From a virus: 21,363 bases of DNA. The stretch is from IMG/VR virus record IMGVR_UViG_3300024516_000008, positions 1 through 21,363 of that record; one strand, written 5' to 3'. The position numbers and the translations under genes were made by a program. This document shows, piece after piece, positions 6,159 to 20,276 of the stretch (positions within the stretch are counted from its first letter, which is position 1; each line of letters opens with the position of its first letter). The notes beneath the pieces are model-generated. The model was not told where the DNA came from. It was given only the letters and a program-made list of their open reading frames with translations, and did no database searches.

Positions 6159-6853
6159 TGCCAAAGTCCAAGAAAATGTCGCGTCGTGAAGACGCTTCTG
6201 CCAGCCGAGGCACTCGGGATTATGAGGTTGATGATGAGACGGCATCCGAAGCACTATTGCAATCCATGACGACGCGCGGCCGTAAGGTCGAGGAACAAGA
6301 CGCCGCCAACGATGATCCTTTCACTGATGAGGATGGAGATCTTCATGTAGTTCCTACTTATTCAGACTTATCCATTTTGATGGATGATGCTTCTTTAGAA
6401 ACCCTGCCATCGAAAGAGATCTTACTCCGTAACCTGAAAGTTACACTTCGAGCCATTGAAATGGCAGAGATCGCATATCATGCTCTTCCAAAACAAGGAA
6501 CGGCTACTGCTCTAACACAGATGCAAAATATGGCGAAGGAGCTGATAGAGGCCATCGAAGCACGACAAGATCCTGAAGTGCTTCAATTAGCCATAATGGA
6601 AACAGTCGTTAAGCCAATGGTGTTAGAGTTCGTCAAGGTCTTAACTTCAGAGGCCGAACGCAAGCGAGCTGCTCTTATGGCCATCATTCCACCAGAAAGT
6701 GCTGGAGTCGTGGCACATGAAATGAAAGATCTCCTGAAGGGAGTAACTCAGGGATGCGATGAAGCTTTTGATGATTGCGTTCGTAGGTTAGAGGAACTAC
6801 TTGGAGCTAAGATCAAGGGAACTGCCGGAGTAGCCCGATCCAGGAAGAAATAA
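6158..6853 (+). CDS. Small terminase subunit candidate
   Basis: This 231-aa protein lies directly upstream of the large terminase and overlaps its start by TAATG, which is the usual place for the small, DNA-recognising subunit. Residues 1-65 are charged and disordered. Residues about 80-220 are all helical, with a long acidic/amphipathic core and a basic tail ending SRKK. Small terminase subunits are helical oligomers of about this size, often with an N-terminal HTH, but no clear HTH is visible here. The call therefore rests mainly on position. A different packaging cofactor cannot be excluded. The two Cys at residues about 200 and 207 are not in a zinc motif. Confidence 0.5.
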   Translation: MPKSKKMSRREDASASRGTRDYEVDDETASEALLQSMTTRGRKVEEQDAANDDPFTDEDGDLHVVPTYSDLSILMDDASLETLPSKEILLRNLKVTLRAIEMAEIAYHALPKQGTATALTQMQNMAKELIEAIEARQDPEVLQLAIMETVVKPMVLEFVKVLTSEAERKRAALMAIIPPESAGVVAHEMKDLLKGVTQGCDEAFDDCVRRLEELLGAKIKGTAGVARSRKK

Positions 6854-8838
6854 TGTCTGAAACAGAATGGTCACCTTCCAGCTTAATTTCCCAAGCATTG
6901 GCTTCGGATCTAGACCCCGGTGTCTTTTCCCTCATCAATGAGGGCGACATTTCCAAGGCTCCTAACTTTTTAGATTTTTGCTTGAATAAGAAATTTCTGA
7001 ATGTTATTCCATATCCTAGACAAATCGAAGCGGGCTTGTCATTCTTCGAGGAATATTGTCCAGATTGTACAAATCCAGAATGGCTACATGGAAATGAGGA
7101 GAAAGTCTTAGATCTATTCGATCAACCAATCTCCGAAATCTTGGAAAACATCCAACTTTTAGAATTCGGCAGATGCCAGAAGTGCGGCAAAAACAAGAAT
7201 GATTTCGCTAAGAGCGGGCAATTTCACGCTCCTTACGAACTAGCTGGATGTGCGGGGCAGAGATCCGGTAAATCCGCCTTGGTTGCTATGATTGCCGCGT
7301 ATCACTTGCACCGGTATCTCGTAATCCCAGATCCTATTCGTTTCTTTGGACTTTTGCCCTCTTCCCAGCTCTATATGAGCATGACGGCTGTATCCGCGAT
7401 GCAGGCAGAAGCCCTGTTGTGGATTCCCTTCAAGGAATATGTAGATGAAGCTCCTTGGTTCCGGGAATATCATAATTTGCTACATGACACCGGAGAACGG
7501 CTCGGTACTGAGCTGATGCATAGACCAAAAACTTTCTTGGTATACAAACACAAGCGCATTGCCTGCATGTATGAAGCTCCCAACAAGCGGCGTCTTCGAG
7601 GTAAAACCAGATTCTTCACAGCAATCGACGAGATCGGATGGATGGAAGCGGACGCTACGAAGCAATCTGTGACTCTATCTGCCGACGAAATTTCGGCGGC
7701 GCTCGATAACTCTCTGCGCACGTTGAGATCAAAAGCTGAAAAGAAGCGTCTCGCTGGAATGTGGAATTGCCCGGATGGCATTGCATGCAATATTTCAAGT
7801 CCTTCCGCCAAAGATGACAAGATCATGCGTAATGTTCGCTCTGCCCGCACAAACAAGCGCATTTATGCCTATCACTATCCTACTTGGGAAGCCAATCCTG
7901 AAATCAGTCGAGAAAGTTTACAACCAGAATATGACAAAAGTAGGATGGTAGCTGAGCGAGACTTTGGTGCTATTCCACCTCTCGCTAATGATCCATTCAT
8001 TGACAACCCTAACTGTATTGATTTGATGATCCGAGAAGCCCATAAGCACAATCTGATACAGGTAAAAATTGAATACGATACTGACGAATTTGGCAACATC
8101 ACCAAATATGCCAAAGTCAATGTCCCCATGATTGACAAGCGAAAGCCGCGAATGCTTCTTTGTGATGCTGGCGAGAAAAGGAATCATTTCGCGGTGATGC
8201 TAATGACCTGGGATTCAAAGATGAATCGAGCACGGGTAGACTACGTATTCGATGTGAGCCCGGAAGAGGGAATTCCTATCAATTTTGCGCTGATGTGGGA
8301 ACATTGCTTCCGACCGCTGTGTGAGGGCCTTCTCATCCGTCACATGTTCTCTGATACATGGAATAGCACCGAACTAGTTCAGCGCCTCCGACAATTCAAA
8401 GTGATTTCCGAGCAAGTTACTCTAAAGTTCGCAGATTTCGTGGAAGTAGCCGCTCGTCTGGGAGCTGGGGAACTGATTCTCCCGAAACCGGAGCTACCTA
8501 TCGAAGAACTTCGCCTAACCTACGAAAATCCCACAGAATATGTAAAGGGTAAACCCGTTCTATCGCTGATTTTACAAATGCTGACTGTCCGGCAGGTGGG
8601 GCGCAGAATTACCAAACCTATAAATGGCGACGATGATATGTTCCGGGCTTTGTGTCTGGGTATGTCTCAGATCGTCCGCCCAGAGCTAAAAAGGATATAT
8701 GCGGTAGACGCGGCTGGAGGGTCAGCGGGTAATCTTGGGGTTATCTTCTCTAAGAGCGCCGGATCTGCCGTAATTGACCAAAATAAGACGACTAACAGTG
8801 CGGTTTTGAAGACAGTTAAGGGCTACCGGGGCCATTAG
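6853..8838 (+). CDS. terL: Terminase large subunit (packaging ATPase and nuclease)
   Basis: This 661-aa protein is the motor that pumps DNA into the prohead and cuts it. Residues 132-141 hold a Walker A motif (AGQRSGKS, Lys140). The Walker B is FFTAIDE, with Asp259 and Glu260. The RNase H-like nuclease has Asp438 (MLLCDAGEK), Asp501 (MFSDTWNS) and the acidic NGDDDMF at 592-597. Before the ATPase core, CPDC (69-72) and CQKC (108-111) form a likely zinc-binding insertion that short terminases lack. Length is usual for large myovirus terminases. The ATG overlaps the preceding stop. The 102-aa zinc protein follows after 11 bases, and the portal comes next. Confidence 0.95.
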   Translation: MSETEWSPSSLISQALASDLDPGVFSLINEGDISKAPNFLDFCLNKKFLNVIPYPRQIEAGLSFFEEYCPDCTNPEWLHGNEEKVLDLFDQPISEILENIQLLEFGRCQKCGKNKNDFAKSGQFHAPYELAGCAGQRSGKSALVAMIAAYHLHRYLVIPDPIRFFGLLPSSQLYMSMTAVSAMQAEALLWIPFKEYVDEAPWFREYHNLLHDTGERLGTELMHRPKTFLVYKHKRIACMYEAPNKRRLRGKTRFFTAIDEIGWMEADATKQSVTLSADEISAALDNSLRTLRSKAEKKRLAGMWNCPDGIACNISSPSAKDDKIMRNVRSARTNKRIYAYHYPTWEANPEISRESLQPEYDKSRMVAERDFGAIPPLANDPFIDNPNCIDLMIREAHKHNLIQVKIEYDTDEFGNITKYAKVNVPMIDKRKPRMLLCDAGEKRNHFAVMLMTWDSKMNRARVDYVFDVSPEEGIPINFALMWEHCFRPLCEGLLIRHMFSDTWNSTELVQRLRQFKVISEQVTLKFADFVEVAARLGAGELILPKPELPIEELRLTYENPTEYVKGKPVLSLILQMLTVRQVGRRITKPINGDDDMFRALCLGMSQIVRPELKRIYAVDAAGGSAGNLGVIFSKSAGSAVIDQNKTTNSAVLKTVKGYRGH

Positions 8839-9163: not shown

Positions 9164-11218
9164 ATGTTCTTCAAATTTGGAAAGCAACGAACCGGAAGCG
9201 CCTACAACCTCCATCGAAACAATAGATCGAAAATAGGAAAAACGGTTACAACCAAAACGGTTACAGCTAGCTTAGGTAGCAGCGGTACTGGCGGCAGCGG
9301 TGGAGGAGGCAGTGGGTTTTCTGGAAGTGGCACAGGAGCCAATACTTTTGGGGGCCAATACAACGTATCTAGGTTTAATCCAGTCCATGACCATCTAGAA
9401 ATCGGGTCGATCATTGAAGATTGGATGCCTCGCGATCAAGCGGGCCTAAGTCAACTATGGCGATTGATCTATCTACGGGATGCTATTGTCGGACCTGCCG
9501 TCGATTTATACAGCAATCTACCCTATAGTGAATGTCGTCTGAGCGGCATAGAAGATCCAGCCATCATGCGTGTGTATCAGGACACAATGGAGAGACTTGA
9601 TATAGTCACTATGATGCCTGAGCTAGTTCGAGAGTTTCTGATGATTGGGCGTTTTTGTGCTTCTCTGATCTTTGACGGAAAGCTTGGCACCTTTACAGAT
9701 TGGACAGTCCACGACCCGGACTTTCTTCGAATTGAGCCAATCCCCGTTCGTGGGATAGACCCAAAGATAGACTTAATTGCCTCCCCCGCTCTAAAGAATT
9801 TTCTTCATTCCCAAGATGAACGAGATTTAGCAGTAAAGGATGGGCTTCCTCCAGAATATTTCGAGGAGTTTGAGAAGCATGGTACCTACAAGCTAAACCC
9901 TCTCAGTACCATATTTGTGCCTAGAAGGGCAAATCCTTACGATTACGTTGGCACTTCTTTTCTGACCCGAATCGTGAGCTTCTGGGCATTGGAGAAGTCC
10001 TTGGTCGAGAGCACTGTGACCAATGCGCGCAGGCGCACGAGAGCTATTACTCACGTCAAGGCAGGTATCGAAAACGTCTGGGAGCCTACAGAGGAAGAGC
10101 TAGAGGCAATTTCAGGCTTGTTCATCCAAGCTGACGAAGATCCCGTGGGAGCAGTAGTTACCACTCGAACAGGCGTGGAAACTTCCGAAGTAAAGTCAGG
10201 GGCCGACTTCTGGAAACTGTCGGACGAGTGGGCATTCCTGACTGAAGGTAAGATGAGAGCCCTCGGTATCTCTGACGCTTTCCTCAGTGGAGATGCCACC
10301 TACAATAACATGGAGACGGCTCTGTCAGTCTTTATGGAGACCCTCCGTACTCTCCGTGCCTACATGGATCGGAGAGTTTTCTACGAAAAGATCTTTGCCA
10401 CTCTAGCTCGGGTTCATGGATTCATCAAACCAGATGCGAGGAGCAAAGGTCCCGGTATGCTTAGTCGTACCCTAGACTATCGAAAAGCGATGAAGATTCC
10501 CCGGGAAGACCTTCTCATGCCCAAGATAGTGTGGGATAAGAAACTTCAACCAGAGGGGGATATGAACTTCCTTGAGATGTTGCGTACTGCCGATGAGGCA
10601 GGCGTACCTGTCACTTTGAAGCAATGGGCCACTGGAGCCGGTCTCAATCTAGAAGAAATGATGGAGGAGCTAGAAGAAGATTCTACGTACAGGAAGAAGA
10701 TCGGTGAGTGGCGCAAGCAATTCACTGGCGATGCTGCTATGGAGCAAGAGGTAATGTCCGGGGAGGGCTTGCGAGCTATTCCAGTCTGGGATAGAAACAA
10801 TAATTTCGTATCTCTCTCTTCCACAGAAGCACTTGATGTTCTGGAGCATTTCCTTGGTTCCAAGGAGAATATGTTGAAGTTGACCAGTTCAAATGAAACG
10901 ATGCGCATTGTCAGTTCTTTGCTGGATGGGGATGCTATTAAGACTGAGCTAATGGCTTACCTTCTGAGACGCCTGGGAGTTAACACTCCTCTGCCTATTC
11001 CAGAGAGAACCATTGCGGCCATTTCGGAGCACGTCACCAAGATCGGGTCAGAAACGGACTCTGGAGTAGTGAAGAAAGCCGTCATGAATGAATTCCAAAT
11101 CCTAGCAAGAATCACATCTTCGGGGATTTCAAATGACCGAAAACTGGCTCTTGTGAAGGGAGCAGCCAAGCATCAGGATATGAGTGCCTTTACTCCTAAG
11201 GCTGTCACTGGGGTATAG
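9164..11218 (+). CDS. Portal protein
   Basis: This 684-aa protein lies two genes after terL and has the make-up of a phage portal, the dodecameric ring through which DNA enters and leaves the head. From about residue 90 it reads like the portal core: WRLIYLRDAIVGPAVDLYSN, then helices with the stretch LVREFLMIGRFCASLIFDG near residue 150 and a long mixed body with an acidic helical C-terminus. Residues 1-37 are basic, and 38-58 are a pure Gly/Ser/Thr linker, which is unusual for a portal. The ribosome binding site before the ATG is weak (only GAGTAAAT), so translation may depend on the upstream gene 5 bases away. The identification rests on overall pattern and position, not on one motif. Confidence 0.85.
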   Translation: MFFKFGKQRTGSAYNLHRNNRSKIGKTVTTKTVTASLGSSGTGGSGGGGSGFSGSGTGANTFGGQYNVSRFNPVHDHLEIGSIIEDWMPRDQAGLSQLWRLIYLRDAIVGPAVDLYSNLPYSECRLSGIEDPAIMRVYQDTMERLDIVTMMPELVREFLMIGRFCASLIFDGKLGTFTDWTVHDPDFLRIEPIPVRGIDPKIDLIASPALKNFLHSQDERDLAVKDGLPPEYFEEFEKHGTYKLNPLSTIFVPRRANPYDYVGTSFLTRIVSFWALEKSLVESTVTNARRRTRAITHVKAGIENVWEPTEEELEAISGLFIQADEDPVGAVVTTRTGVETSEVKSGADFWKLSDEWAFLTEGKMRALGISDAFLSGDATYNNMETALSVFMETLRTLRAYMDRRVFYEKIFATLARVHGFIKPDARSKGPGMLSRTLDYRKAMKIPREDLLMPKIVWDKKLQPEGDMNFLEMLRTADEAGVPVTLKQWATGAGLNLEEMMEELEEDSTYRKKIGEWRKQFTGDAAMEQEVMSGEGLRAIPVWDRNNNFVSLSSTEALDVLEHFLGSKENMLKLTSSNETMRIVSSLLDGDAIKTELMAYLLRRLGVNTPLPIPERTIAAISEHVTKIGSETDSGVVKKAVMNEFQILARITSSGISNDRKLALVKGAAKHQDMSAFTPKAVTGV

Positions 11219-11219
11219 C

Positions 11220-12203
11220 GTGCATCAGGGAATGCCACATAAGTACCAATTTTCCAACATAGCGCCAGAATTGAGCGTTGCCATGTTCGAGAATCATTGG
11301 AAACTATACGAGGGATATGTCCTGAAGCTAAATGAGACTATGAAGCAGTTGTCAAATCCTTATGACCCCGAGTTAGTAAGGAAGGCCAGCCCTGCTTCGG
11401 GAAAACTTCGTGAGCTGGAGACAGCTAAATCCTTTTTGAATAATGCTGTTTTGCTGCATGAGCTGTTTTTTGAGAATGTCATTTTACCGGATAACAGTGC
11501 TCCGATGGCTCCTGGCCCTCAAACAATGTCGCTTATTCAGCGAGATTTTCCTCACGTAAAGGCTTCCGATTTTTGGGACACTATCATCAAACCAACGTCT
11601 AAGGCTGCTCGTGGATGGTGCATTGTGGGAGTTAATATGCTCCAATCTAATATGGATGTCGCCATGCTAGATTCCCATGAGGGCATAATTCCGCTTGGTT
11701 TGTATCCTGTGCTTATCATTGATATGTACGAACACTCCTATTCTGAGCAATATGGCATTGATAGAGGCACTTACTTGGATCATCTGAAGCGCAGCATTAA
11801 CTGGTCCATTGTCGAGCATAGGCTTGCTACTGTCATGAGTGCATCGGAAATGATGCGAATCTCCATACCAGAAGAGGCAGAGGAATACATTCGGCAGCAA
11901 TTTACGGATAAGTCCGACATAGAATTCGGCTTCCCAGATGAGGACGACTTTCCAGATCCGCAACCTGAGAGCACCGGTTTGGACCATAGAAACGAGTTGT
12001 CTATACAACCAAATCCTAGGGCACACAGTGCGGTAGAAGATAAGGTAACTAAAGCCGATCTAGAAGATGCTTATAACCAGATCACGCATCTATCCCGAGT
12101 CTCTTTTAGTTCAACAGATGACATGTTTGACAAAGTAGTGAGAGGCAGAAGCCCAAGATTCCGAGATGAACTATGGGCTATGATGCAAGAGGGTCCTGAG
12201 TAA
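11220..12203 (+). CDS. Fe/Mn superoxide dismutase-like protein with C-terminal extension
   Basis: Counted from the ATG at 11232 (323 aa), residues 5-200 follow the Fe/Mn superoxide dismutase fold in order. An N-terminal helix reads MFENHWKLYEGYV. Helix NNAVLLHELFF carries the second metal ligand, His76. RGW occurs at 128-130. SHEG lies at 148-151, where archaeal and mycobacterial enzymes have an active-site His. PVLIIDMYEHSYSEQY supplies the last two ligands, Asp164 and His168, and SINWSIVEHR closes the domain. The first ligand is doubtful: His22 is 7 rather than 8 residues before the Tyr, and Asn21 sits in its place. A polar 120-residue tail has no counterpart in the enzyme family. The start may be GTG 11220, with GGGG 6 bases upstream, or ATG 11232. 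The product may be an active enzyme or a structural protein using the fold. Confidence 0.8.
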   Translation: MHQGMPHKYQFSNIAPELSVAMFENHWKLYEGYVLKLNETMKQLSNPYDPELVRKASPASGKLRELETAKSFLNNAVLLHELFFENVILPDNSAPMAPGPQTMSLIQRDFPHVKASDFWDTIIKPTSKAARGWCIVGVNMLQSNMDVAMLDSHEGIIPLGLYPVLIIDMYEHSYSEQYGIDRGTYLDHLKRSINWSIVEHRLATVMSASEMMRISIPEEAEEYIRQQFTDKSDIEFGFPDEDDFPDPQPESTGLDHRNELSIQPNPRAHSAVEDKVTKADLEDAYNQITHLSRVSFSSTDDMFDKVVRGRSPRFRDELWAMMQEGPE

Positions 12204-13144
12204 TGAGCTTTCAAAAAATCAATCAACTTGCGGGCGCAGCTATCGTTCATGGCTTTGTTGACGAGATCGTCGAATTAAATGAAGTCCTGGCTTTTGATCT
12301 CAGATTCAATCTACGCCATCCAAAAATCCAGGCTATCTACATGCTGGAAACTCCCATCAACGGGTGCCATTTTGAAGTTGTCAAGAGAGACGGCAGTAGG
12401 CATCATGTTGGCGGAGATATAGCTGGCAGAATTCTAGGCGAGGAAAAGGCGTATATGTCTAACCTTGAGCAGATTGCTACTCAGGCCAAGGAGCAAGCTG
12501 GGCTCATTAAGCAATTCTGTCGCAAATGTGATCTGTTCAGCAAGATCTATCCCGAGGAGTATCAGGAGCAGCAGCTCAAGGATCGCCAGAAGGCTATGGA
12601 AGAAGATTACCTCAACCGAGCTGGCGGCGTCATGTCACGTCTTGCAAATGCTGATAAGACACTTGCTGATGAACCCCCCAAGGTCTCTTTGCCAGCCGCG
12701 AATCCTATCTCTGCGGCTGTTTCTAGTCGAATTCGGGCCAAACTGCGAACAAACTGCGAAATCCAGTATGCAGTGGCCCAGGGGCATCTCCCAAGTTGGA
12801 TCGAGTTTCTGCGCGACAAGAGCGGCCAAGTTCTGGGAGAGAAGGAAATTTGGACCGAAACAGACCCGACCGGAGTCCTGCGTTTTGAAGCTAGGGGAGG
12901 TAAAATCATCCTCAGTCGAGACGGAACGGAGGTAGGAGCATGGGATTCCTATGAATCCGCTCACAAATTCCTCCGTTTGGGGGCAAATTCGCTTCCCAAT
13001 CCTGTTCTTCCGCTAACCAAAAATTCCTACGAGAGAACTGTTGAAGCCATACCTGCTGATGAGGCACTGTTGAGACCTACTATTCGGGCTCAGGTAACAG
13101 CTAGCATCTGTGATCCTAAGCTATGGGATTTCCTAAACGAATAG
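12203..13144 (+). CDS. Hypothetical protein of the capsid assembly module
   Basis: This 313-aa protein is not recognised. Its start overlaps the previous stop (TAATG), so it is coupled to the dismutase-like gene. The N-terminal 75 residues look like a mixed alpha/beta unit. Residues 80-150 are a charged, probably coiled-coil helix with one CRKC at about 106-109. Residues 185-300 form a second, beta-containing unit. A single CxxC could bind metal only as a dimer or with more distant residues. It is followed after 39 bases by the protease gene. The position between portal and protease suggests a head protein, but nothing in the sequence names it. Confidence 0.7.
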   Translation: MSFQKINQLAGAAIVHGFVDEIVELNEVLAFDLRFNLRHPKIQAIYMLETPINGCHFEVVKRDGSRHHVGGDIAGRILGEEKAYMSNLEQIATQAKEQAGLIKQFCRKCDLFSKIYPEEYQEQQLKDRQKAMEEDYLNRAGGVMSRLANADKTLADEPPKVSLPAANPISAAVSSRIRAKLRTNCEIQYAVAQGHLPSWIEFLRDKSGQVLGEKEIWTETDPTGVLRFEARGGKIILSRDGTEVGAWDSYESAHKFLRLGANSLPNPVLPLTKNSYERTVEAIPADEALLRPTIRAQVTASICDPKLWDFLNE

Positions 13145-13183: not shown

Positions 13184-13909
13184 GTGCCTCATAAGGTCTA
13201 TGGATCTGTTGCCAGATCAGCTCACGTCATAGAAGCGAGCAAACACAGCTACGGGTACACGCGCAACAAGACTAAGGCAAGCATTCTTGAAACAAAGAGT
13301 GCTTTCTCGGACTATAAGCGCGATATTGATGTGTCTTGGCTGGCGGCTGCGGCCGAGACCTATCAGATCAGCCCGGACATCCGTGACTACATCATCGTAG
13401 ATATTCCCTCCGTCACGGTAGATATCCCTAATCGAAATTTGCAGTCTTTTCCCTATGAAGAAGTATCTTTTTTCGATAACATGCAGGGTAGCCTAGTCTA
13501 TCAAACATTCAACGGCCGACCTACACATGTTGACCACCAGAATCAAAATCCCCTGGAGGCTAAGGGCACTCATTTTGATTCAACTCTTCAGTTTGTACCT
13601 GCCTACAATGTCTGGAAGATCAGAACTCTAGCGGGTTTTGATCGAACCAAGGATACCAAGCTCGCTGCCGATATCTTGAGCGGCCGTAGAAATGGGTATT
13701 CTATGGGCGCGCTAGTTCAGAATTTTGTTTGTTCTAACTGCGGCCAGGTAGAGGTAATCAAGAATCCTTGCCGTTGCATGGCTATGGGCAAGGGATCTAT
13801 AGTAGACGGCAGACTTGTATACCAGATATGCGCTGGTGTTCAATTCTTCGAGCAGTCTTCCGTTGAAGACCCGGCAGATCCTACGGCTCTGTCGAATGCG
13901 GTGTACTAA
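13184..13909 (+). CDS. Prohead (capsid maturation) protease
   Basis: This 241-aa protein has the pattern of phage head-maturation serine proteases of the T4 gp21/HK97 type. The likely catalytic His lies in GRPTHVDHQNQNPLEAKG (His115 or His118) and the Ser in GYSMG (Ser173). The closing segment FFEQSSVEDPADPTAL near residues 221-236 is typical of the family. After the Ser, CSNC (183-186) and CRC (196-198) give a probable zinc site, as in many proteases of large phages. The start is GTG at 13184 with an excellent AGGAGGGA site at 13171-13178. It would cut scaffold, capsid and other head proteins after assembly. Its stop overlaps the next start. Confidence 0.88.
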   Translation: MPHKVYGSVARSAHVIEASKHSYGYTRNKTKASILETKSAFSDYKRDIDVSWLAAAAETYQISPDIRDYIIVDIPSVTVDIPNRNLQSFPYEEVSFFDNMQGSLVYQTFNGRPTHVDHQNQNPLEAKGTHFDSTLQFVPAYNVWKIRTLAGFDRTKDTKLAADILSGRRNGYSMGALVQNFVCSNCGQVEVIKNPCRCMAMGKGSIVDGRLVYQICAGVQFFEQSSVEDPADPTALSNAVY

Positions 13910-15558
13910 TGCCCTGGAAGAGCAAAAAGCAGCAGCGTTGGGGCCACGGCAAGGGCGGCAAGAAGGCTGGATTTTCCACAGAGAAAATTGAGGAATGGGA
14001 TGACAAGACGAATTTCGAATCTCTTCCTGAGGAAGCATTGATTGACGAGGCCGCTACTAAGGATGACGTAAAGAGCCTGAAAAAGCTATCCAGAGAGCAC
14101 AACATGGGAATGCGCTCTGGAGGATTCCATAGTCCTCCAAAGGGCAAGAAACAATATACTCGAAAAGAGAAGCACAAGGAACAATCAAAGAGCGAGTCAC
14201 TAACGCCCACTGATGAGACGTATCGCCGGTACAGCTTCCCCATCGCAAAGCTGGTTGCGGGTCTGAACTGGTCTACATGGGAGCAAGAAACTCATAGCGA
14301 AGAAGGCTACGTGCCTGCTTGGGGTTTCCATTCCGTGGTGGACAGAGGTGTAGACCCACACGAAAAGCATGAGGGTGCTAGGAAGATAGAGCAGGCCCCT
14401 AGCCCGCTCCCGGCGTCTGGATCGGGGACGAAGCTGCATAAAGCCTATGCCCTAAACTGGGCTACAGAGGGCCGTCCCTGCGGAGATGAGGAAAAGTACC
14501 CGGAGAAATGTGGTCCCGGGGAGGGTCCCGAAGATACAGAGCCGGACTATCCCGACGTATCCACTCCAGAGAAAAAGCGAGCATGGGACGAATCCGTTGA
14601 CCGATATGTAGGCGGACCAGAACAAGGGGAACCCTCATCCCCAGAAGAAGAGGCGACACAGCGATACCAGTTCGGGATGCTCTCAAGCCACTTAACTCAA
14701 TATGACCAACGTTTGGCAAAAAGAGAAAGCCACCCCAATATTTATCGTATTGGTCATTTTCTGAAGGCTGCTCAGGATATGGAAAAGGCCGTAAAAAGTG
14801 GGCAAGATATGGAGAGCGCATTTGCTGATTCATTCACGCCCTCCGGCCCAATGGAAACGATAGCGAAGAAACTGGGACTAGGGATGGCAGTACAGAGAGG
14901 CGAGTGGGTGAAAGCAGATCCTCCTAATCCAGACGCCCATCCCCGCGACCGATGGAAGAAGCCACGACAGAAGGCAGCACCAGAGGGCGGTGCTCAGCGT
15001 TCAGATCTGGATATAGAGAAAAATCAGATGATGATGGACCCTAATCTCCACCCGCAAGAGCGCGAGGACTATCTGAAGAATTATGAGCAAGAGAAGAGCC
15101 GACTTGGCGGACAGGTCTGGTCCTCAACTCTGAATTGGGAAGTCCTTGCCTACGGCCACGGTGGATATCACTACAATCCGCACGTTTCTAAGCCTGTTGC
15201 TTTAGAGCCGATTGGTGAAGAAGGTGGCTATCATTACTTCGGGCCGCCGCCCGACGGTGGGTTCTCCTACGGGCTCTATACAGACGGAACTAATACCATT
15301 GCAGCTCAAAGAGCAGCCCAAGTGTACAGTCCAATCACCGGCGCTCCCATGAAATACGCCGGAGATGCTTCCTACGACTTGGTAAAACAGGCACTTTCTG
15401 GCTCTAAGTTCCCGAATTTACTGCATTCTTGCGGTTCTTGTGCCTATGCCTACGTAACTTCCGCAGATTACTTGAAAAATCTGAATTGTCCTGCTTGTGG
15501 CTCAACTTCCGAGTATGGAAATGCTATGATGCGAGGACGAAGAGCAGCAAAAAAGTAG
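13909..15558 (+). CDS. Large hypothetical protein with C-terminal zinc ribbon, probable head protein
   Basis: This 549-aa protein has no recognised family over its length. The N-terminus, KSKKQQRWGH followed at residues 30-41 by W...TNFESLPE, matches a short motif seen at the ends of many small phage proteins (SKxQQRxM ... SLPE). Residues 66-105 and 200-250 are polar and likely disordered. LNW occurs three times, at 119-121, 182-184 and 408-410, each after a short hydrophobic run. Residues 508-511 (CGSC) and 527-530 (CPAC) form a zinc ribbon. It lies between the protease and the scaffold-position gene, so an internal head protein or protease substrate is plausible. It starts at a TAATG overlap with the protease gene. 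Confidence 0.7.
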   Translation: MPWKSKKQQRWGHGKGGKKAGFSTEKIEEWDDKTNFESLPEEALIDEAATKDDVKSLKKLSREHNMGMRSGGFHSPPKGKKQYTRKEKHKEQSKSESLTPTDETYRRYSFPIAKLVAGLNWSTWEQETHSEEGYVPAWGFHSVVDRGVDPHEKHEGARKIEQAPSPLPASGSGTKLHKAYALNWATEGRPCGDEEKYPEKCGPGEGPEDTEPDYPDVSTPEKKRAWDESVDRYVGGPEQGEPSSPEEEATQRYQFGMLSSHLTQYDQRLAKRESHPNIYRIGHFLKAAQDMEKAVKSGQDMESAFADSFTPSGPMETIAKKLGLGMAVQRGEWVKADPPNPDAHPRDRWKKPRQKAAPEGGAQRSDLDIEKNQMMMDPNLHPQEREDYLKNYEQEKSRLGGQVWSSTLNWEVLAYGHGGYHYNPHVSKPVALEPIGEEGGYHYFGPPPDGGFSYGLYTDGTNTIAAQRAAQVYSPITGAPMKYAGDASYDLVKQALSGSKFPNLLHSCGSCAYAYVTSADYLKNLNCPACGSTSEYGNAMMRGRRAAKK

Positions 15559-15602: not shown

Positions 15603-15702
15603 ACTCGCCTGTCATACGCAGGCTCAGGTGCGAGTCCATTGTCTTTTTTGAAGTAGCGGTCCTGAGCCCATAGACATACATCCGATGAGGAAAAAGACAA
15701 TG
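15603..15702 (+). promoter_or_regulatory. Switch-like mRNA leader covering the start of the scaffold-position gene
   Basis: Three helices can form in this 141-base leader. Helix A is ACTCGC (15603-15608) with GCGAGT (15630-15635), enclosing CCTG/CAGG. Helix B is GGCTCAGG (15621-15628) with CCTGAGCC (15661-15668). Helix C is CATTGTCTTTTT (15637-15648) with AAAAAGACAATG (15691-15702), which includes the whole ATG. B crosses both A and C, so A with C (start hidden) and B (start free) look like alternatives, or a complex pseudoknot forms. The rest of the leader, 15559-15602, is AT-rich and could hold a promoter. No known riboswitch class is recognised. Confidence 0.55.
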
Positions 15703-18177
15703 ACTATCAAGATTGACAAAGTACGAAAAGCTCTTAGGCAGATCACAGCCGGTGATCCCGGCGAACTTGATCCCGCTGTTCCACCCCACGGCGGAACTCA
15801 CGATACAGACATTGATATCGCGGACTACGTGGTAAAACTTGTCGATACGAATTCTCCCGACACGCCGGATCTAGAAACCCGTGCTTATGAAGGCGGAACT
15901 GAGGAAGACGGCACTGCCGATACTCCTCCCTACGATGGCGAGTCCAGCGTAGATGGTATTCCCGTCATTCCTGACACGATGGCGGCTAAGACCAATCGTG
16001 GCTCGACCCCGCTTGGTGGTCCTATTGGTGGCGACCCGCAGCCCGCAACTTCGGCCGCTGGCGACGACGCTGGCGACGCTCAGAAGAACAAGGGCGGCGG
16101 CGGACCTGTGGTACAGCTTCCTGACACGATGCAGGATGAAGTATCCGTGGCCCCGGATGATCCTCACGCCTCAGTAGCCCTGACGACACATGATCTCGTT
16201 GATCTCCGCTCTATCATGGGCGAGAAGGCCGAGACCAATGTGGGGAAGGCAGTAAGAGTTCTTCAGTGGCTTGACCGCAACAAGAGGAACCCGAAGAGGG
16301 AAGCTGTAGAGGCAGGGCTTGATAAGTGGAATCCAAATAAAGAGCAGTCTCTTGAGGCTCAGGCTCGATATGGTTTTGCTTACCTGCACACTGACTCTGC
16401 GGCTGATTCGAAGAATGCCGAGAGGACCCAGAAGGTTCTGTCTTGGCTCAAGAGCTTCCTGACAGGCCGTAAGCTAAAGGTCGCTGCTGACTTCCTCAAG
16501 AGTGCGGAAGCAAAGAGCGATCCTGAGCTGGCCAAGCAGGTATCCGTCTGGTACAAGGTAAATGCAGTAGAGCTAGGCCCAGGTCTTCCGACAAGCGAAG
16601 AAGTAGGCATTGATGACATCACACTCTATGGCCCTCAGGATGATTCCCCGAGTCATAAGCCTGCTGCGGCAGATGATGGCTTCACGGAGCCGAAGGTCGT
16701 TAGTCTTGATGACGTTCCGTTCAAGGACCCGGAGAGGCATCCAGCCGAAGCCGGTAACGAGGTAGACGAGCAGTCTGGTTCGCCTGCCCAGGATGCTAAT
16801 GCCGTAGATAGCGACTCGTTCAGCGCCAAGGGTGATGATCGGGCAAAGGAGTCTAATTTGCCGACAGCAAAGACTGTAGAAGGTTATGGTCATGGCTATG
16901 CTGATGAAATCGCTGCTCCCCCGGTCCCGGGTCTGCCTGAGGCACCCCCGGAAATGCCGCTTCCGCCTGAAGAGCCTCTTCCTGGCCTTCCTGGCGAGCC
17001 TGTGGCACCTGGCCTGGAGGGACTTCCGGGTGGAGAGCCTGGACTTCCGGGTGGAGAGCTTGGACTTCCGGGTGGAGAGCTTGGACTTCCGGGTGGAGAG
17101 CCTGGACTTCCTGGCGAATTGCCGCCTGAGATGCCCGGACTTCCTCCGGTTCTACCTGAGGATAACGGCGGGATGCCCGGTCTAGAGCCGGAACTGCCCG
17201 CCGAGGGTCAGGGCATGCCCCCAATGGGTGGCGGCGGAGCGCCCGGTGGCGGCGGCGGTCTTGCCCCTGCTGCTGGACCTGACCAGGGACTAGAACAGAG
17301 CCTAGAAGAATGGCTAGCAGAGGAACTGAGAGAGCCAGTGCACCAAGATCCAGCAGAATCCGCACACATAGAAATGCTGTCCAATTTCGATGACGTTGGT
17401 CCGATTCTTTCCTCTGATATTGTCATGTCTCTATATGGCGAAAGTCAGGAGAATCCTCACTGGAACATCGACATCAAGGGTCGTCCTGTTGCCCGTGTTG
17501 AGCTAAGTGACCAGCCGAAGCCAGAAGAAGTACGCTCGACGTTCCTCTCTGGTCCTTACGCTGAGAACATTGCTCAGGCGATGGAGAAGGTTGGTGTAAG
17601 CGAGGTTCTCAAGGCGATCAATGCGAAGCCTTATGCTGCACGAATCGAAGTTGGCGCGCTTGCCAAGAAGATTGAAGCTAAGATGACGGAAGCTTACGAG
17701 CAGAAGTTTGCCGAGAAGGTAGGCGAGCTGCGAGATCGCTTCCTAACGGCAGCCAAGATCGCACTTGCAGGCTACAACAATAACTTCTTCCGTGGTGAAG
17801 ATCACGCTCTAAAGGCTGCGCTCTGGAGTGAGCTGAAGAGACTGGGTGTCCGAGATGCATCGAAGGCCATTGAAAGTGGTTTCGATGAGGGATCGGTTCC
17901 ATTCTTTGAAGCAATTCTGAGCAAGGCTGAGGAACTCATGGACCTGCCTGACGAAGCACGAGATGCTATCGCCAAGGCGATTCCTGAGAGTAATGCTCTT
18001 GTGGCAGCGGGTGCTGACACCGGGAGCGAGTTGCCCAATCACGAGACTCTAGCCTCGAAGCTGGAGCAGGGAAATGTCCCATTCGAGAATGCAAGCCCGA
18101 ATGTAACAGCTTCCCGCTCTGACTTGCGAGACGGTCTTCGAGAGAGGGTCAAACTATCAACGTTCCGGTCCAGCTAA
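15700..18177 (+). CDS. Scaffold-position head protein with collagen-like segment
   Basis: This 825-aa protein lies between the protease and the capsid genes, where scaffold or internal core proteins are found. The start at 15700 has GAGG 9 bases upstream; an ATG at 15685 overlaps that site and is rejected. Residues 1-160 are acidic, Gly/Pro-rich and disordered. About 170-300 is helical. About 405-527 is Gly/Pro-rich with a collagen-like GLPGGE run. About 540-770 is a helical domain (LTAAKIALAGYNNNFFRGED near 685). The disordered, acidic and helical composition fits a scaffold or a large internal head protein that is cut by the protease. The collagen-like middle is unusual for a scaffold. Expression is probably controlled by the structured leader in front. 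Confidence 0.7.
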   Translation: MTIKIDKVRKALRQITAGDPGELDPAVPPHGGTHDTDIDIADYVVKLVDTNSPDTPDLETRAYEGGTEEDGTADTPPYDGESSVDGIPVIPDTMAAKTNRGSTPLGGPIGGDPQPATSAAGDDAGDAQKNKGGGGPVVQLPDTMQDEVSVAPDDPHASVALTTHDLVDLRSIMGEKAETNVGKAVRVLQWLDRNKRNPKREAVEAGLDKWNPNKEQSLEAQARYGFAYLHTDSAADSKNAERTQKVLSWLKSFLTGRKLKVAADFLKSAEAKSDPELAKQVSVWYKVNAVELGPGLPTSEEVGIDDITLYGPQDDSPSHKPAAADDGFTEPKVVSLDDVPFKDPERHPAEAGNEVDEQSGSPAQDANAVDSDSFSAKGDDRAKESNLPTAKTVEGYGHGYADEIAAPPVPGLPEAPPEMPLPPEEPLPGLPGEPVAPGLEGLPGGEPGLPGGELGLPGGELGLPGGEPGLPGELPPEMPGLPPVLPEDNGGMPGLEPELPAEGQGMPPMGGGGAPGGGGGLAPAAGPDQGLEQSLEEWLAEELREPVHQDPAESAHIEMLSNFDDVGPILSSDIVMSLYGESQENPHWNIDIKGRPVARVELSDQPKPEEVRSTFLSGPYAENIAQAMEKVGVSEVLKAINAKPYAARIEVGALAKKIEAKMTEAYEQKFAEKVGELRDRFLTAAKIALAGYNNNFFRGEDHALKAALWSELKRLGVRDASKAIESGFDEGSVPFFEAILSKAEELMDLPDEARDAIAKAIPESNALVAAGADTGSELPNHETLASKLEQGNVPFENASPNVTASRSDLRDGLRERVKLSTFRSS
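17020..17103 (+). repeat. Four tandem 21-bp repeats encoding a GLPGGE(P/L) heptad
   Basis: Units at 17020-17040, 17041-17061, 17062-17082 and 17083-17103 share GGACTTCCGGGTGGAGAGC and differ only by CCT or CTT at the end. A degenerate fifth unit begins at 17104. The near identity of the DNA points to recent slippage or unequal exchange, so copy number may vary between relatives. The unit encodes G-L-P-G-G-E-P/L, which is collagen-flavoured but has a seven-residue period and so is not a true Gly-x-y repeat. Confidence 0.9.
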
Positions 18178-18202: not shown

Positions 18203-18961
18203 ATGTCCTACGATCTAAAAAGATCACACTTCTCGATCATTCTAGAGAAGAAGGTTTCAACCGGGTCGGTTGTAACCGAGGAAGGTGTAATTTTGGTAGC
18301 TGTCCTCGATCCCACTACCGGTGAGGAAGTTGTTCAACTTGCCGCCGGTACAAGTGGTGAGGTAACCGCCGGTTTCGCTATTCGCGATAACGCCGACAAT
18401 GCTACCACTTCAGTAGTCGAAGAGGGTACGGTTCCCTCGTCTGGAACACTTGAGATCCAGCTTGATAACAACAACCTCGTTGCCAGTTCCGCTGGTGACG
18501 GTGCTACCTCTCAGTTGCGCGTCGTGGCTTCCACATCTGGCGCACTGACACTAGTCGATGGTTCGACCCCATCGAGCGGTGAGGTTGCGAATGAGCCGGT
18601 AACGGGTCTTCTGACCTTCAACTCGGCTCAGTCTGGTGAGGACGTAGTGGTCACGTACCGCTTCAATCTCACTGTTGCTGAATCTAGACTGCTGTTCTTC
18701 CAGCGTAACATCAACAATGAGTCAGGTGCCCTATTCGGTCAAACTGGTGTCGGTCATGGTCATGGTGAGATCTTCACCGATCAGTTCGATGCTACGGTTG
18801 ACTGGAGTGTAGCTGGTCAGGGCCAGTGGACCGGTGCCGATGGTCAAATTGTTGGCGCGGGTCCGGGTGCTCGCCTTGATTCACGGGTAGTTTCCGTTCC
18901 TAACGTGAACAATCCGCTTCTAGGCATCGCATTCGATATTGGTGGACGCGCAGGCGTCTAA
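18203..18961 (+). CDS. Putative capsid decoration or head fibre protein
   Basis: This 252-aa protein is rich in Gly, Ser, Thr and Val with alternating strand patterns throughout (for example GEVTAGFAIRD, TSQLRVVAST and DVVVTYRFNLTV), so it is almost certainly beta-sandwich or beta-fibre in structure. No catalytic motifs, cysteines or signal peptide are seen. The ATG has a strong AAGGAG site 7 bases upstream. It lies between the scaffold-position gene and the major capsid gene and is followed by a strong terminator. That place and composition fit a capsid decoration protein, as small beta-rich proteins commonly do next to phage capsid genes, but no family is recognised. Confidence 0.65.
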   Translation: MSYDLKRSHFSIILEKKVSTGSVVTEEGVILVAVLDPTTGEEVVQLAAGTSGEVTAGFAIRDNADNATTSVVEEGTVPSSGTLEIQLDNNNLVASSAGDGATSQLRVVASTSGALTLVDGSTPSSGEVANEPVTGLLTFNSAQSGEDVVVTYRFNLTVAESRLLFFQRNINNESGALFGQTGVGHGHGEIFTDQFDATVDWSVAGQGQWTGADGQIVGAGPGARLDSRVVSVPNVNNPLLGIAFDIGGRAGV

Positions 18962-19094: not shown

Positions 19095-19139
19095 GTAGAT
19101 TTACGATTGAAAACCTTAGACTATAGAGGAGAAATCACA

Positions 19140-20276
19140 ATGTCTAAGAATCCTTATCTTGCTCGCCCGGCATATGTCGGCCGGGGTGGGGATGCTCTGG
19201 TTGATGGCGGCGTTAAGGCGTCCAAAGTCAGCCCGCGAACTGGCACCTTGGTACAGTCAAGCACTGAGTCCCTCGTTTCTGGTAAAGGCGAGATTAACGC
19301 AGGAAGTAAGCGAGAGCTTATGACCGCAATTGGCGCTCTTCAGCGAATGGTCGCTACGGGTGAGGTCCGAAAGGTCGATCCCAACGAGCAGTACGGTGAT
19401 ATCGTTACTGCCCGACGCGAGCTGGTCGAAGCCGCTTACGCCGACAAGAACGGCGAAGGTTGGCAGGTACTTGGCGAGGTCATCGGTGAAGAGATTTGGG
19501 AAACCCTCGGTCGCGAGGGCTTTGCCCGTAAGACTCTTCTCATCAAGCCGCTTGGAAAGGGTGAGACTGGTAGATTGCGCGTAAGGCGGAAGGATGTTAT
19601 CTCGTTCTTTGTAACGAGTGACCCTAACGTTATTGCGTCGCAGGTTCGCCAGTTCTACATCTATCCGCCCGAGTTCTACTTGATCGCGCATATCACGATC
19701 GAGGACAAGGAAATCGAGCAGGCTAGTGGCGATCTTCTTGATGACAAGTATCAGGACGGTCTTGAGCAGATCATGGTCCGTGAGGACGAGACTTGGCGCA
19801 GGCTAATCAATGCTGCGGCAGGTGCCTCCAATGACCTGTTCCTGTTCAACACCTTCACGCCGACGGTATTCTCGACGATGCGTACACAGATCGCACGTTG
19901 GGGTATCCCGGTAACTGGTGCTATCATCGCTTTCGATCTCTGGGATGACATCATTGCTGACACTGAGTTCAGCACTTGGTTCGATCCGGTATCGAAGCAT
20001 GAGATCGTGCTTGAAGGTTCTCTTGGAAGCATTCTCGGTGTGAACCTTATCACCGACGCTTTCCGTCATGATACGTTGAGAGTTCTGGAGGCCGGAGAAG
20101 TTTACTTCTTGGGCGCTCCTCAGACCCTCGGCGGCATCACGCAGCGGAAGGAACTCGCAACTGAGAGCATCAACAAGTACAACCAGGGCAAGCCGGAGCG
20201 TGGTTGGTTCATGGAGACAATCGAAGGAATGTCGATCGTGAACAGCCGTGCGGTTACGAGAGGTAACCGGGTCTAA
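19140..20276 (+). CDS. Major capsid protein (HK97-type fold)
   Basis: This 378-aa protein has the features of an HK97-fold capsid protein. A charged N-terminal arm covers about residues 1-75. A spine-helix region (YGDIVTARRELVEAAYADKN) is followed by a mixed body with repeated strand-turn elements. The C-terminal part binds IARWGIPVTGAIIAFDLWDD to LGSILGVNLITDAF, as in the A-domain of this fold. The start at 19140 has an excellent AGAGGAGAAA site (19125-19134); a TTG at 19107 is rejected. It is bracketed by hairpins at 18976 and 20310, so it is probably a single-gene unit suited to very high expression. It would be processed by the protease encoded at 13184. Confidence 0.85.
   Translation: MSKNPYLARPAYVGRGGDALVDGGVKASKVSPRTGTLVQSSTESLVSGKGEINAGSKRELMTAIGALQRMVATGEVRKVDPNEQYGDIVTARRELVEAAYADKNGEGWQVLGEVIGEEIWETLGREGFARKTLLIKPLGKGETGRLRVRRKDVISFFVTSDPNVIASQVRQFYIYPPEFYLIAHITIEDKEIEQASGDLLDDKYQDGLEQIMVREDETWRRLINAAAGASNDLFLFNTFTPTVFSTMRTQIARWGIPVTGAIIAFDLWDDIIADTEFSTWFDPVSKHEIVLEGSLGSILGVNLITDAFRHDTLRVLEAGEVYFLGAPQTLGGITQRKELATESINKYNQGKPERGWFMETIEGMSIVNSRAVTRGNRV

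Follow-up and report, generated by a model that had tools for sequence, protein, structure and literature searches.

A superoxide dismutase gene in the head cassette of a large tailed phage

The window analysed here, a 21.4 kb virus record taken over its whole length of 21,363 nucleotides, carries on its plus strand a head cassette in which a gene of the superoxide dismutase (SOD) family lies between the genes for the portal protein and the head maturation protease. A head-gene context had been assigned in the original prediction, and phrog matches for the terminase, portal, maturation protease, virion structural protein and major head protein now identify the cassette by family. The genes and features discussed below are as follows.

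6853..8838, plus strand: terminase large subunit (phrog_17415, 1.4e-140)
9164..11218, plus strand: portal protein (phrog_16240, 5.6e-125)
11232..12203, plus strand: SOD gene, 323 amino acids plus stop, with an alternative GTG start at 11220
11232..11873, plus strand: SOD core domain, residues 1-214 (AF2 pLDDT 94.1; Foldseek to 1coj, TM 0.85)
11295..11297, plus strand: His22 ligand codon, invariant among 46 phage SODs
11457..11459, plus strand: His76 ligand codon, invariant among 46 phage SODs
11721..11735, plus strand: Asp164 and His168 ligand codons (DMYEH), with Glu167; D, E and H invariant
11874..12200, plus strand: clade-specific C-terminal tail of about 110 residues, 48-78% identical within the clade
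12203..13144, plus strand: orfX, 313 amino acids, its start overlapping the SOD stop; 61-86% identity in the clade
13184..13909, plus strand: head maturation protease (phrog_18299, 6.9e-57)
18203..18961, plus strand: virion structural protein (phrog_16710, 3.8e-23)
19107..20276, plus strand: major head protein (phrog_2522, 2e-62), an open reading frame from TTG in which a later ATG may be the true start

The reading frame that holds the SOD gene is open across 11184-12203, with GTG 11220 and ATG 11232 as plausible starts. Relatives in the clade begin at approximately the position of the ATG, from which residues are numbered throughout, placing the Asp164 codon at 11721-11723 and the His168 codon at 11733-11735. 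At the 3' end of the gene, the sequence TAATG (12201-12205) overlaps the SOD stop with the start of orfX, for which Pfam and phrog matches gave no clear family. Farther downstream, an 830-residue protein (window 15685-18177) contains collagen-like GLPGGE repeats, and its C-terminus matches phrog_20988 (ATPase, 1.3e-20). Counts of promoter- and terminator-like sites lay near the shuffled means.

The SOD pattern noticed earlier in this gene product is borne out by both family searches and structure prediction. Pfam Sod_Fe_C matches the product at 7.9e-12 (45.6 bits; cut-off 20.9), and the match to Sod_Fe_N (0.0099) falls under its own cut-off. The best sequence relative in the PDB is the Fe-SOD of Aquifex pyrophilus, 1coj (phmmer, 1.4e-22), to which a profile of five orthologues also matched at 1.7e-25. 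An AF2 model of the 214-residue core, computed with an alignment of 45 phage SODs, reached a pLDDT of 94.1 and a pTM of 0.89 and contains the two-domain SOD fold (an alpha hairpin plus an alpha/beta domain); modelling of the full protein with the five orthologues only gave a poor result (pLDDT 41.5). In a Foldseek search of the PDB, the core model retrieved 1coj first (TM 0.85/0.86), then archaeal and other Fe/Mn SODs, with 257 chains at E <= 0.001 and only SODs among the matches listed; in BFVD, the only two matches at E <= 0.001 were uncultured-phage proteins called superoxide dismutase. The original prediction had staked its reading on a two-domain fold and a SOD family match, and both were obtained. 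That the gene product contains a real Fe/Mn SOD domain is nearly certain, and chance similarity to SODs is ruled out by the E-values and the fold match.

Four candidate metal ligands, His22, His76, Asp164 and His168, are invariant in the five orthologues. When 46 diverse phage SODs are aligned, no column is invariant other than these four and those of Gly128, Trp129, Glu167 and Tyr170, all of them positions conserved in SODs. The last three ligands are those named in the original prediction, which had described the first ligand helix as off by one residue (Asn21 His22). The position preceding His22 is occupied by Asn in the window, by Asp in the orthologues, and by Ala, Ser, Thr, Val or others in further phage SODs; because this column varies and His22 does not, His22 is taken as the first ligand and Asn21 is rejected. 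What the earlier description had captured is a helix 1 that lacks one residue relative to cellular SODs (H-x-x-L-Y-x-x-Y vs H-x3-H-x3-Y), a shortening common to the window SOD and a large family of phage SODs. These residues support a full Fe/Mn ligand set, His, His, Asp, His, through which one Fe or Mn would be bound. A SOD dimer is also probable, given that the interface residues of the WEHAY motif, Glu167 and Tyr170, are kept and are invariant in the 46 phage SODs. Around the metal site, the gateway His30 is replaced in the window clade; Tyr29, equivalent to position 34 by one register, is conserved in at least 90% of phage SODs and is Ala or Ser in two clade members (L003, L015), which also have Asp in place of His149; and the Trp of DxWEH is replaced by Tyr, Ser or His in the window clade. 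With such variation at the gateway and in the second sphere, some clade members could have weak activity or none.

Every IMG/VR contig found with a window-type SOD or protease (28-267 kb) was assigned to the clade, and the order portal-SOD-orfX-protease is present in six of six contigs, namely the window and L001, L002, L003, L004 and L015; L003 and L004 are nearly identical, leaving five distinct sequences. The patterns used recovered no relative of the window-type SOD from the genome collection. An artefact, either chance similarity or a mis-assembly that joined a cellular SOD to a phage contig, would have only the fragment nature of the record in its favour and is exceedingly improbable in the face of the E-values, the model and fold match, the recurrence of the same arrangement in five other contigs derived from different samples, and the failure to find any close cellular relative of the window SOD.

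Comparisons beyond the clade indicate how the gene came to its present place. The portal is 33-38% identical to portals of PaBG-like jumbo phages, and seven named PaBG-like records contain no SOD anywhere, including 3' of the portal; the phage that hosts the SOD gene would be a distant relative of PaBG and Sarumanvirus. In nearer outgroups (portal 40-42%), the protease follows the portal directly or is separated from it by genes of varied size, and none of the outgroups with related portal and protease has a SOD between the two. Genes that occupy this slot in outgroups, such as L163:7698-8708, L152:7773-8486 and L204:7748-8236, bear no similarity to the SOD or to orfX. Because genes of various sizes are held there, the portal-protease gap may be a site tolerant of insertion. 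Since the SOD is present in all clade contigs and absent from the outgroups, we regard it as a clade-specific gain that was kept, and the sequences are best read as recording an insertion in the head cassette. Other features also distinguish the cassettes of relatives: their portals are 1124-1592 residues long and look to be split by intein-like segments (CVTGDTLLSTDKGF, CVSGDTLVQTDKG; L001:1213-5991, L002:1251-6005, L015:4619-7993), the window portal being uninterrupted, and proteins resembling GIY-YIG homing endonucleases (YVLTSPSGKQYVGQT; L001:9980-10627, L003:9471-10181) are encoded in the structural cassette near the counterpart of the window gene at 13909-15558.

Within the clade the SODs are 55-81% identical, and in the set of 46 phage SODs identity outside the clade is 17-32%. 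Orthologue comparisons give pN of 0.12-0.28 and pS of 0.74-0.96 for the core, with corresponding values of 0.14-0.35 and 0.72-0.98 for the tail; pN is thus several-fold under pS in the SOD gene, which denotes purifying selection, given here without an exact ratio because synonymous sites are near saturation. The C-terminal extension anticipated in the original prediction is present, at about 110 residues in place of the 120 proposed, and among all collected loci searched it has no relative outside the window clade. We propose that it serves as a targeting or attachment part. These findings bear on the choice that the prediction had left between an enzyme and a SOD fold reused structurally in the head. 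In the second case the protein would be a non-enzymatic component of head structure or assembly, for instance one associated with the portal or core. The location between portal and protease, the extra conserved tail and the variable gateway and second-sphere residues could all be accommodated by such reuse, yet the four ligands are invariant across the divergence of both the clade and the 46 phage SODs, which a purely structural role would not require unless the metal were kept for stability, and close outgroups build their heads without a SOD. Structural reuse is, in our judgement, quite improbable. Because only the ligands and SOD-conserved residues are invariant, a metal-binding, probably catalytic protein is favoured, and the residue pattern makes it highly likely that the window SOD binds metal and is probably active, in which case it would dismutate superoxide.

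Where such an enzyme might act can be approached through other phage SODs; SOD relatives were detected by a scan in at least 464 viral contigs. In T4, L/I-x-E is the motif after which the prohead protease cuts, and internal proteins rely on N-terminal capsid targeting sequences (PMC9026906). In a leader-bearing family (L034-L062, L064 and L065; e.g. L048:3875-4588, L064:3800-4528, L059:3785-4747), 21 non-redundant short-helix SODs (drawn from within L034-L065) have a leader of 33-76 residues, and in 20 of the 21 the site [LIV]xE|[ASG] lies precisely 23 residues ahead of the ligand His; when the leaders were shuffled and sites counted in a 17-residue window, the mean was 1.4 and the maximum 6. 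Among 18 members of a group with the canonical helix, 16 have [LIV]xE ahead of the SOD domain, mostly 27-29 residues N-terminal to the His (shuffled mean 9.3, maximum 14). Several canonical-helix SODs (L072, L074, L076, L095, L069, L113, L077, L103) start with a sequence like MKLMSILTEAK or have I/L-x-E just before the domain, and their N-termini resemble T4 capsid targeting sequences. Of 20 contigs tested, 8 encode a T4-type prohead protease of the S77 family, four large contigs of the leader-bearing family among them; gp23 is encoded in all eight, and in several it has a matching site around residues 55-60. This combination of leader and protease suggests that the SODs may be packaged in T4-like heads, a proposal that draws on leader and protease because the neighbouring genes in the loci read show no clear head-gene families. 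Phage SODs also occur in a third form, in which the domain is embedded within proteins of 360-712 residues with an N-terminal domain of ~165 residues (L073, L108, L112, L086 and relatives); in L084, such a gene has a helicase gene on one side and a phrog_211-matching gene on the other.

Proteins of the window clade have no N-terminal leader and start at the SOD domain, their protease is of the phrog_18299 type instead of S77, and Peptidase_S77 (PF03420) had no match in three large window-clade contigs (G012, G013 and G014). Because leader and S77 protease are absent, packaging in this clade is argued from gene position and the extra tail. It is here that a further explanation must be weighed, namely that an active SOD works free in the infected cell as the product of an auxiliary metabolic gene co-transcribed with head genes by chance. 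Precedent comes from PA5oct, MIJ3 and relatives, and Vibrio phage 2.275.O, whose SOD genes lie among metabolic genes, and the absence of a prohead-protease leader from the window clade and the presence of other genes in the portal-protease gap of outgroups are in keeping with it. However, the head-cassette position and tight stop-start overlap are fixed in all members found, the conserved clade tail is not needed by SODs of known structure, and related phage SODs bear leaders that resemble head-targeting sequences; a free enzyme is accordingly deemed possible but unlikely. The PA5oct protein, gp223 (L025:7938-8486), is annotated as hypothetical, although it is a SOD by Pfam with all four ligands, and its record bears the note ESI-MS/MS.

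On balance we lean towards a true Fe/Mn SOD of a phage-adapted branch, encoded within the head cassette of a large tailed phage. On this reading the protein is most likely built into the head, probably targeted there by the clade-specific C-terminal tail. That the window SOD is present in the virion is probable by analogy with phage SODs carrying protease sites, taken together with the gene position and its conservation in six contigs. An enzyme so placed would shield the DNA and protein inside the particle, or the cell just infected, against superoxide. Tentatively, and with rather less confidence, head packaging of Fe/Mn SOD might be a recurrent strategy of large tailed phages that arises by two routes, a cleavable capsid-targeting leader in the T4-like family and a C-terminal tail combined with the portal-protease slot in the window clade; if so, the packaged SOD would protect the stored genome or be injected to damp an oxidative response that the host mounts early. 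To our knowledge, where phage SOD genes have been catalogued at all, it has been as stray metabolic genes. The head-cassette SOD and the phage family with protease-site SODs point instead to virions carrying an antioxidant enzyme; that some phages may do so inside their particles bears on oxidative stress as a barrier to infection, or on a need of virions for protection in storage.

Phage SODs as such are already known; as far as the literature could be searched, none has been described that is fixed between portal and protease and bears a clade-specific tail, and no account of a phage-packaged Fe/Mn SOD was found in the open literature. In a tree of 48 phage SODs and only six cellular SODs, all plasmid-encoded, the window clade (support 100/99) forms a group (89/91) with three long-branched phage SODs and the leader-bearing family, and this group adjoins the SODs of chromate operons. 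Because cellular sampling is thin, we treat the phage-only grouping as tentative and claim no phage-only origin.

The Aquifex pyrophilus Fe-SOD 1coj shares with the window protein the fold (TM 0.85), the four ligands, the LHELxF motif, the His of a D-x-H motif ahead of the third ligand, and DxYEH, but is a cellular enzyme whose helix 1 is one residue longer with a gateway His and which lacks the C-terminal tail. The nearest cellular branch in this small tree comprises chromate-operon SODs of the ChrC type, encoded on plasmids (L026, L027, L032) and taken as ChrC-like from a reading of their operons; ChrC and ChrF of TnOtChr were reported as SODs (PMC4779226). They have LHE[LI]YF and DMY[EK]H in common with the window SOD, but differ in identity (about 26-30%), canonical helix length and chromate resistance context. 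The leader-bearing phage family has the same short helix, H-x-x-L-Y-x-x-Y, and the same eight invariant residues, but carries a leader with a T4-type protease site instead of a C-terminal tail and is not beside portal or protease in the loci read. PA5oct gp223, MIJ3 SodB and the SOD of Vibrio phage 2.275.O are likewise phage-encoded Fe/Mn SODs with four ligands, whereas their length (182-189 residues), metabolic-gene surroundings, lack of a tail and separate tree branch set them apart. Finally, PBCV-1 packages an active Cu/Zn SOD in its virion (PMC7019647); this protein, A245R, belongs to an algal virus and is unrelated in fold and metal, but as a virus-encoded, packaged SOD it exemplifies how the window SOD may work.
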